A stretch of DNA of 44,290 nucleotides from Leptolyngbya sp. (GTDB lineage Bacteria; Cyanobacteriota; Cyanobacteriia; Leptolyngbyales; Leptolyngbyaceae), in contig QBMH01000010.1 in NCBI GenBank assembly GCA_003249025.1, positions 1-44,290 of the forward strand. The letters are read 5' to 3'. Both the position numbers and the translations under genes were made by a program. Each line of letters starts with the position of its first letter. Position 1 is the first letter of the stretch. Positions 42,774-44,290 of this stretch are shown piece by piece. The notes below the pieces were generated by a model. That model did not search any database, was not told the DNA's origin, and worked only from the letters and a program-made list of their open reading frames with translations.

Positions 42774-42815
42774 ACCTGAAAATCCTATTGAGGAGTACAG
42801 TTCTTTAAAATCAGA

Positions 42816-42856
42816 AAGAACGCCGACGACTTTCCGTGTTTCGTCTCGGCGTTCTT
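42816..42856 (+). terminator. Hairpin after the surface-protein gene
   Basis: AAGAACGCCGA (42816-42826) pairs with TCGGCGTTCTT (42846-42856) around a 19-base loop. No clear T-run follows, so intrinsic termination is only probable. The remaining spacer up to 43109 shows no other gene. Confidence 0.6.
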
Positions 42857-43109
42857 GCTGGTTCGCTCCTCACACCCCCTCAATATATAGCACTGACACA
42901 GATCTGTCATCCCCTTGAAACATCAGAAAAAGTTATCCAAGTTGAGATTGATACTCAAGGTAGTGGTCATCTCTCAACAAAAGCTTCGTCATGCCTAAGT
43001 TAAATTAAGCTAACTCTCTATCGCTTGCATTGGGTTCCCTTAAGTTTTACGCTTGGATGATCATTATGAGATGCGCTCATTACGGATTGCGCGTGTATTA
43101 GGAGAACTC

Positions 43110-44039
43110 ATGACCAATCGCCCCATCATCCTAGGCATCGTCGGCGACAGTGCGGCTGGCAAAACAACTCTGACACGAGGAATTGCCCAGGTATTGGGAG
43201 TTGAAAATGTCACCACGATTTGTACAGACGATTACCATCGATACGATCGCACCCAGCGTGCAGAAATGGGAATCACAGCCCTCCATCCGGACTGTAATTA
43301 TTTAGACATCATGCAGCAACACTTATCATTGCTGCGAACGGGACAATCCATTCTAAAACCGATCTATAGTCATAAAACTGGAACATTCACAGCACCCGAA
43401 TATATCAAACCGAATAAATTTGTGATTGTGGAAGGGCTGCTCGGCTACTCCACCCGTGGTGCGCGCGACTGCTACGACGTGAAGGTTTATCTGGCACCCC
43501 CTGAATCGCTCAGAACTGAGTGGAAGGTAAAACGAGACACTCAAAAACGTGGCTATACCGCAGAACAGGTGATTGCAGAAATGCAAAAGCGGGAGCCAGA
43601 TTCGGAGCAATATATTCGTCCTCAACGACAATGGGCTGATATGGTGGTGACGTTTTATCCTCCAAGTGATGCATCTACTCAGGGAAATGGGCAATTAAAC
43701 GTGCGACTGGTTCTTCGCCCTAACATTCCTCATCCTGATTTAACCAAGGTGGTGACTAGCCATGCTGCCTATTCCAACCCTGCAATTCGGCTGGGGCTAG
43801 ATCGAGATATGGGCAAACCCGTGGATGTGTTGGAAGTGGATGGACGCGCAACCGAAGAGCAGGTGATTCAACTAGAACACTTTATTTGTAGCGAATCACC
43901 AAATTTGCTTTCGTTCTGTAATCGCGATATGAATCCAGGGTTAGGCAAAGTCATGGGTACAACGGGAGAAGCCCTCCAGAGCTATCCGCTGGCGATTACC
44001 CAACTGTTAGTTGCCTATCATATGCTGAGAGCGACTTAG
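43110..44039 (+). CDS. Phosphoribulokinase/uridine-kinase-family protein, non-canonical PRK
   Basis: A P-loop kinase of 309 residues in the PRK/URK family. Features are IVGDSAAGKTTL (Walker A), ICTDDYHRYDRTQRAEMGITAL (substrate-binding Asp/His/Tyr), ILKPIYSHKTG and FVIVEGLLGY (Walker B). Start is ATG 43110 because AGGAG lies five bases upstream; the open frame reaches a TTG at 43053. The Calvin-cycle PRK of cyanobacteria reads GDSGCGKST, with a redox-active Cys in the P-loop. Here that position is Ala, so the thioredoxin/CP12 disulfide cannot form, although the second cysteine (in TICTDDYH) is kept. It is therefore a paralogue of the canonical enzyme. Ribulose-5-phosphate as substrate is possible but unproven. 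Confidence 0.85.
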   Translation: MTNRPIILGIVGDSAAGKTTLTRGIAQVLGVENVTTICTDDYHRYDRTQRAEMGITALHPDCNYLDIMQQHLSLLRTGQSILKPIYSHKTGTFTAPEYIKPNKFVIVEGLLGYSTRGARDCYDVKVYLAPPESLRTEWKVKRDTQKRGYTAEQVIAEMQKREPDSEQYIRPQRQWADMVVTFYPPSDASTQGNGQLNVRLVLRPNIPHPDLTKVVTSHAAYSNPAIRLGLDRDMGKPVDVLEVDGRATEEQVIQLEHFICSESPNLLSFCNRDMNPGLGKVMGTTGEALQSYPLAITQLLVAYHMLRAT

Positions 44040-44290
44040 AGCCTATCCGGAAAATGTTAGGAGCTTACGACCGACAATCAAACAAGCGGCAATCTGAACA
44101 AATCCTAAGTAAGAGTGAGATAACTTAGCCCAGCGAATCAACACTCCTCGAAAGCGATTAAACCAGGAATGCGCCACTTCGACGACCCAACGGCGGGGCG
44201 GATGGCGGTTGGGGTCAGTTGGAGCTGGCAGGGGTGCATCTTTGTCAGGGATATGAGGAATATATCCTCGTGCCTCTGCCGCTTGCCGAC
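44039..44290 (-). mobile_element. Right-hand part of an IS5-type insertion sequence (cut by window edge)
   Basis: The end of the element appears to be GAGCCTATCCGG (from 44039), which overlaps the stop codon of the preceding kinase gene. The other end lies outside the window, so terminal repeats and the target duplication cannot be confirmed. Confidence 0.65.
44043..44290 (-). CDS. IS5-family transposase, C-terminal fragment
   Basis: Read on the minus strand, the frame entering from the right edge gives the typical IS5/IS1031-like C-terminus: HPPRRWVVEVAHSWFNRFRG, then WAKLSHSYLGFVQIAACLI and a TAG at 44043-44045. The 'RRWVVEVAHSWFNRFRG' segment holds the conserved Glu of the DDE triad. The N-terminal two thirds are outside the window, so intactness is unknown. 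Confidence 0.88.
   Translation of the reverse strand, partial: RQAAEARGYIPHIPDKDAPLPAPTDPNRHPPRRWVVEVAHSWFNRFRGVLIRWAKLSHSYLGFVQIAACLIVGRKLLTFSG

Follow-up and report, generated by a model that had tools for sequence, protein, structure and literature searches.

A second phosphoribulokinase in cyanobacteria, most likely a Ru5P kinase outside the canonical thioredoxin/CP12 switch

Close to the end of the window, as we call the whole 44,290-nucleotide stretch of Leptolyngbya sp. contig QBMH01000010.1 that was analysed, lies a gene for a second phosphoribulokinase (PRK). The encoded protein is most likely, with a probability of roughly three in four, a Ru5P kinase operating outside the canonical thioredoxin/CP12 switch. 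Only two enzymes, PRK among them, are regarded as peculiar to RuBisCO-based CO2 fixation, and PRK is a main point at which the pathway is shut down in the dark. The family of the second PRK is already known and the window protein is not a new kind, as crystal structures have been deposited: PDB entries 9QKN, 9QKO and 9QKP, with entry names referring to Hyella disjuncta / Chroococcidiopsis PCC 6712, match it end to end (residues 1–308, E about 1e-147). Of these, 9QKO and 9QKP were deposited as 'cyanobacteria specific phosphoribulokinase' and 9QKN as 'Uridine kinase'. No paper on the second PRK was found in a literature search whose scope excluded bioRxiv and most subscription journals, and it is not mentioned in the available portions of PMC9978339, PMC11257934 and PMC4338792. 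The present analysis adds an argument based on the C-terminal cysteine pair, a set of other conserved cysteines, and the observation that the nearest non-cyanobacterial relatives found are PRKs of Calvin-cycle clusters.

The reading frame ending at 44039 could be extended in the 5' direction as far as a TTG (43053); AGGAG precedes the ATG at 43110, and most relatives begin at the same point. Comparison with the closest relative found (L033, from a metagenome-derived genome, 93% protein identity) gave a dN of 0.035 against a dS of 0.61 (dN/dS 0.057), and because of these values the gene is, by this measure, under purifying selection. Taken together with the family-model score and the full-length orthologues described below, this ratio puts the signal of the gene far beyond chance. 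The source genome contains two PF00485 matches, the gene in the window and a canonical prk on contig C344, the latter 39% identical over the matched stretch, as well as one large-subunit match for RuBisCO and a single match for CP12. An earlier note on this DNA had read the P-loop as GDSAAGKTT instead of GDSGCGKST, had proposed a second phosphoribulokinase, and had suggested looking for a canonical prk elsewhere in the genome as a check. The P-loop reading was borne out, the canonical copy having GDSGCGKST with its P-loop Cys, and the presence of that copy on another contig, together with uridine-kinase model scores below their cut-offs (see below), supports the proposal.

Table 1. Positions in the window of the second phosphoribulokinase gene, its diagnostic codons and the flanking features.
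Feature	Positions	Strand	Remarks
Second phosphoribulokinase gene	43110..44039	+	309 aa + stop; intact, near contig end
P-loop GDSAAGKTT	43143..43169	+	residues 12-20; Ala16 replaces the canonical PRK P-loop Cys (Cys19)
Cys38	43221..43223	+	counterpart of canonical Cys41, 126/126 orthologues; partner Cys missing
His43, Arg47, Arg50, Tyr86, His88 codons	43236..43373	+	counterparts of Methanospirillum PRK Ru5P-binding residues
Cys62	43293..43295	+	125/126 orthologues; common to both Calvin-cluster PRKs
Lys139, Arg142 codons	43524..43535	+	counterparts of Methanospirillum PRK Lys151, Arg154
Cys260	43887..43889	+	126/126 orthologues; absent in all other PRK rows compared
Cys270	43917..43919	+	126/126 orthologues; absent in all other PRK rows compared
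Cyano-1 small RNA (RF01701)	42812-42879	-	40.7 bits, gathering score 41
DDE transposon end	44043-44290	-	weak PF13586 match

A multi-copy transposon end begins within at most 4 bases of the gene's stop codon; elsewhere in the genome it has 35 matches, some of them partial and many at contig ends. In L033 the gene is followed by a tRNA, not a transposon. The Cyano-1 match is on the opposite strand, 230 bases ahead of the gene. It exceeds the gathering score in L033 and in a second copy elsewhere in the source genome, and L033 was the only positive when 16 other loci were scanned. Sequence identity to L033 over the 300 bases preceding the gene is 98%, although the dS between the two genes is 0.61, which may reflect either constraint or recombination.

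Of 292 genomes sampled across the phylum, 59 (the source genome included) carry a full-length orthologue of at least 479 bits, with many Nostoc- and Calothrix-type genera among them. The orthologues in the other 58 genomes are 67–80% identical to the window protein, and the next match falls to 192 bits and 43%. Each of the 59 genomes has exactly two matches; among the matches listed, the other one is of the canonical kind, about 36–44% identical to the second PRK. Only pieces of the gene were seen in genome G159, and in G320 a fragment (C8:75192-75383, open frame of 82 aa) matching residues 245–308 alone at 58% looks like a decayed copy. A scan of the virus collection returned no relative of the second PRK. 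A separate draw of 116 Cyanobacteriia genomes included three (G310, G325 and G331) that carried the second PRK without a canonical match. These are drafts of 360, 350 and 580 contigs, respectively, with RuBisCO present in G310 and G325. Replacement of prk by the second PRK is the less likely reading of these genomes, assembly gaps being the likelier cause, because a further genome (G282) has RuBisCO and yet no PRK match at all at the limits used.

The proposed escape from the canonical switch depends on which cysteines are present. In the Anabaena and Synechocystis enzymes, the main target of thioredoxin and light is the C-terminal cysteine pair (Cys230/236 in Anabaena and Cys229/235 in Synechocystis), and the N-terminal (P-loop) pair of cyanobacterial PRK hardly responds to either, according to the available portions of PMC9199185 and PMC13214033. 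Among 47 distinct canonical rows, 40 have a C-terminal C-x5-C and the other seven (L160 and L167-L172, of the two family codes f47 and f55) have two more widely spaced cysteines, 14 residues apart. Conversely, no C-x3-6-C was found in residues 181–255 of the second PRK in any of 126 distinct orthologues, drawn from 142 rows at more than 60% identity and at least 290 residues. Because this closely spaced pair is absent throughout, the canonical switch is, as judged from the alignments, missing from the second PRK, and likewise the pair reported as important for the CP12/GAPDH complex. The N-terminal pair Cys19/Cys41 is broken as well: the counterpart of Cys41 is kept and that of Cys19, present in 46 of the 47 canonical rows, is Ala. 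Ala occupies both positions 15 and 16 in 125 of the 126 orthologues, with a gap in one row. A single canonical prk among the 47 rows (L194, genome G326) has Ser at the P-loop Cys position; that genome, from the same taxonomic family as the source genome, has one PRK match and is without the second PRK.

The earlier note had deduced the absence of the thioredoxin/CP12 switch from the P-loop. The absence stands, whereas the P-loop pair was the wrong basis for it, and the case about regulation is better built on the missing C-terminal pair than on the P-loop Cys. The further description of the enzyme as "unregulated" goes too far. Four cysteines (Cys38, Cys62, Cys260 and Cys270) are nearly invariant (Table 1), and lack of regulation is therefore not established. 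It is conceivable, if on balance doubtful, that the second PRK is redox-regulated by these cysteines, through Cys260–Cys270 or Cys38–Cys62, such that the canonical switch has been replaced and not lost. Their conservation is consistent with such control, as is the confinement of Cys260 and Cys270 to the cyanobacterial clade among the rows compared. However, invariant cysteines may be structural, and Cys38 and Cys62 are found also in a non-photosynthetic relative (Allomeiothermus). A structure predicted from 28 close rows had a mean pLDDT of 64, too poor for cysteine distances or a fold search.

Evidence on the substrate comes from residues named as binding Ru5P and ATP in archaeal and Rhodobacter PRK in the available portion of PMC5241800. 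Seven of these, mapped by alignment, correspond to His43, Arg47, Arg50, Tyr86, His88, Lys139 and Arg142 of the window protein. All seven are found in every one of the 126 orthologues and the 47 distinct canonical PRKs, as well as in the two PRKs from bacterial Calvin-cycle clusters described below; in two uridine kinases compared, five of the seven are replaced. The conserved residues support Ru5P as the acceptor, and the view of the earlier note that the remaining PRK substrate motifs are recognisable is upheld. At the level of the whole protein, NCBIfam model NF005655 (phosphoribulokinase), with its cut-off at 236 bits, gave a score of 464. The model is broad, with scores of 498 bits for canonical PRK, 404 and 346 bits for the Allomeiothermus- and Mycobacterium-cluster PRKs, and 361 bits for a third PRK-like type. 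This third type (345 and 351 aa), likewise over the NF005655 cut-off and with Gly in place of Asp41, was met in genomes G309, G299 and G229 (loci L205, 1056-2093, minus strand; L208, 1052-2107, minus strand; and L206).

The survey of gene order covered 97 loci, each exceeding 9 kb; three or more of them are second copies of the same contig. Queries for RuBisCO, transketolase, aldolase and fructose-bisphosphatase matched at none of the 97 loci, and those for CbbX and epimerase at one locus each. Gene order across the 97 loci thus showed no general Calvin link. The second PRK gene is directly followed by a RadC-like gene, named from reading its sequence and not by a model, in 34 of the loci, and annotated O-methyltransferase relatives occur at most four genes away in 27, mostly in Nostocales; both neighbourhoods are read as inherited order. 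The Mycobacterium cluster also contains an O-methyltransferase, and the Allomeiothermus cluster a 2-phosphosulfolactate-phosphatase relative; these recurrences carry little weight because both families are common. A relative of the same phosphatase stands divergently upstream in 14 loci from 11 distinct genomes (Leptolyngbyaceae, Phormidesmis, Stenomitos and a few others), the copy in the source genome matching PF04029. At five of these 14 loci (three distinct genomes), next in line are a CpcD-linked NAD/FAD oxidoreductase, taken to be ferredoxin-NADP reductase, and then the canonical prk. In the source genome the block of prk, reductase and phosphatase is on contig C344 and the second PRK on another contig.

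The seven residues speak against the earlier suggestion of a kinase for another pentose or nucleoside. In the form of a kinase acting on some other sugar phosphate with the fold and substrate residues of PRK, it is unlikely. Coexistence with a canonical prk in 59 genomes would leave room for a new substrate, and the gene seldom has Calvin-cycle genes next to it; against this, the Ru5P residues are conserved without exception, the nearest non-cyanobacterial relatives found sit in Calvin-cycle clusters, and the depositors of 9QKO and 9QKP chose the name phosphoribulokinase.

These relatives were found in the plasmid collection, in Mycobacterium intracellulare (L197, 45.8% identity) and Allomeiothermus silvanus (L198, 44.0%), each over 99% of the query. 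Both of their PRKs sit in Calvin-cycle clusters with form I RuBisCO, cbbX, rpe, transketolase and aldolase; the L197 cluster (form I RuBisCO, CbbX, PRK, rpe, tkt and aldolase) lies on a mycobacterial plasmid, NZ_CP012886.2. A third record from that collection, 88% covered and 32% identical, is a longer fusion protein. Longer proteins (660-705 aa) with a C-terminal PRK-like domain were encountered at L199, L200, L202 and L207: in three plasmid records, where they neighbour genes of the GtrA, glycosyltransferase-2, PI-PLC-like and HAD types, and in the cyanobacterial draft G325.

Against the two cluster PRKs, local BLAST gave the second PRK 271 bits (306 positions) and 263 bits (318 positions), versus 176 bits (283 positions) and 184 bits (281 positions) against two cyanobacterial prk proteins; its last ~45 residues are matched in the former and unmatched in the latter. 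A 29-row tree placed the second PRKs and the two cluster PRKs on one side of a branch with support 94/90, and the same grouping was supported 96/53 in a 72-row tree. Forcing the second PRKs into a clade with cyanobacterial prk was rejected on the 29-row tree (p-AU 0.0036), for a group chosen after the first tree and with only two cluster-PRK rows on long branches. A single archaeal row, a 189-residue fragment, fell with the canonical side in the 29-row tree and was unsettled in position in the 72-row tree. Support from the trees for the grouping is moderate. Since the closest non-cyanobacterial relatives found are Calvin-cluster PRKs and the clade with prk is rejected, the second PRK is probably not a recent duplicate of prk. 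The idea that it is a cyanobacterial prk duplicate that has lost its cysteines is thus very improbable: its position three genes from the canonical prk in five of the 97 loci (three distinct genomes) is what a local duplicate might show, but that neighbourhood is confined to close relatives, identity to prk is 35–39%, and neither the C-terminal residues nor the tree test agrees with it.

Least likely of all is a nucleoside (uridine/cytidine) kinase filling the place of a udk seemingly absent from these genomes: the name of 9QKN and the lack of any udk match over the cut-off in 116 Cyanobacteriia genomes (7 of 14 control genomes had one) speak for it, but that absence holds equally for genomes without the second PRK, five of the seven family-kept residues are replaced in the udk proteins compared, and two uridine-kinase models gave the second PRK 109 bits (cut-off 180) and 96 bits (cut-off 220) while scoring canonical PRK higher, at 128 and 126.5 bits. 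Of the two outcomes that the earlier note had named as fatal to its proposal, neither was seen: a canonical prk is present elsewhere in the genome, and there is no clear orthology to uridine kinase.

According to the preferred reading, a Ru5P kinase outside the canonical switch, the second PRK of the 'cyanobacteria specific' family would convert ATP and Ru5P to ADP and RuBP, and the RuBP would presumably be supplied to the same RuBisCO as that of the canonical enzyme. Unlike the canonical enzyme, the second PRK would be neither switched by thioredoxin nor locked by CP12/GAPDH, and some RuBP supply could be kept while the canonical PRK is inactive, in darkness or under oxidative or fluctuating conditions, possibly with a separate switch built on Cys260/Cys270. 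Counting against the Ru5P-kinase reading are the name 'Uridine kinase' for 9QKN, the breadth of NF005655 and the few Calvin-cycle neighbours, and also the possible redox control by the four near-invariant cysteines and the moderate tree support. More tentatively, the family may represent a second Calvin-cycle PRK lineage, as in some chemolithoautotrophs with form I RuBisCO and CbbX, kept for when the canonical enzyme is off, blind to thioredoxin and CP12 and with its own Cys260/Cys270 switch; we regard this fuller account, drawn from sequence comparison, as possible rather than probable. If it were true, the name 'cyanobacteria specific' would be too restrictive for the wider family. The second PRK occurs in about one-fifth of the sampled genomes of the phylum, and models of dark inactivation built on one prk may therefore be incomplete there. 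Its kinship to bacterial Calvin-cluster PRKs bears on how the cycle was assembled.

Compared with known systems, the window protein is an orthologue of 9QKN, 9QKO and 9QKP without any distinguishing feature, sharing with them the GDSAAGKTT P-loop, Cys38, Cys62, Cys260 and Cys270. With uridine kinase (udk) it shares the superfamily (PF00485), and differs in the five residues and in scores far below the udk cut-offs. The canonical class IA (plant-type) cyanobacterial PRK has in common with it the seven Ru5P/ATP residues, PF00485 and NF005655, but unlike the second PRK carries Cys19 and the C-terminal Cys pair in the proportions given above. The archaeal-type PRK of Methanospirillum hungatei (5B3F; 173 bits by phmmer, in a match limited to query residues 7–195) is likewise without the P-loop Cys and keeps the seven residues. 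The two cluster PRKs (L197 and L198) also lack the P-loop Cys and have Cys62 and the seven residues; they differ in their location in Calvin-cycle clusters and in being without Cys260 and Cys270. Their gene order is the same as that of Thermus brevis PS18, given in the available portion of PMC13019369 as fructose-bisphosphatase, RuBisCO large and small subunits, CbbX, PRK, epimerase and aldolase; in that organism, the same source reports, RuBisCO and PRK are far lower in heterotrophically grown cells.
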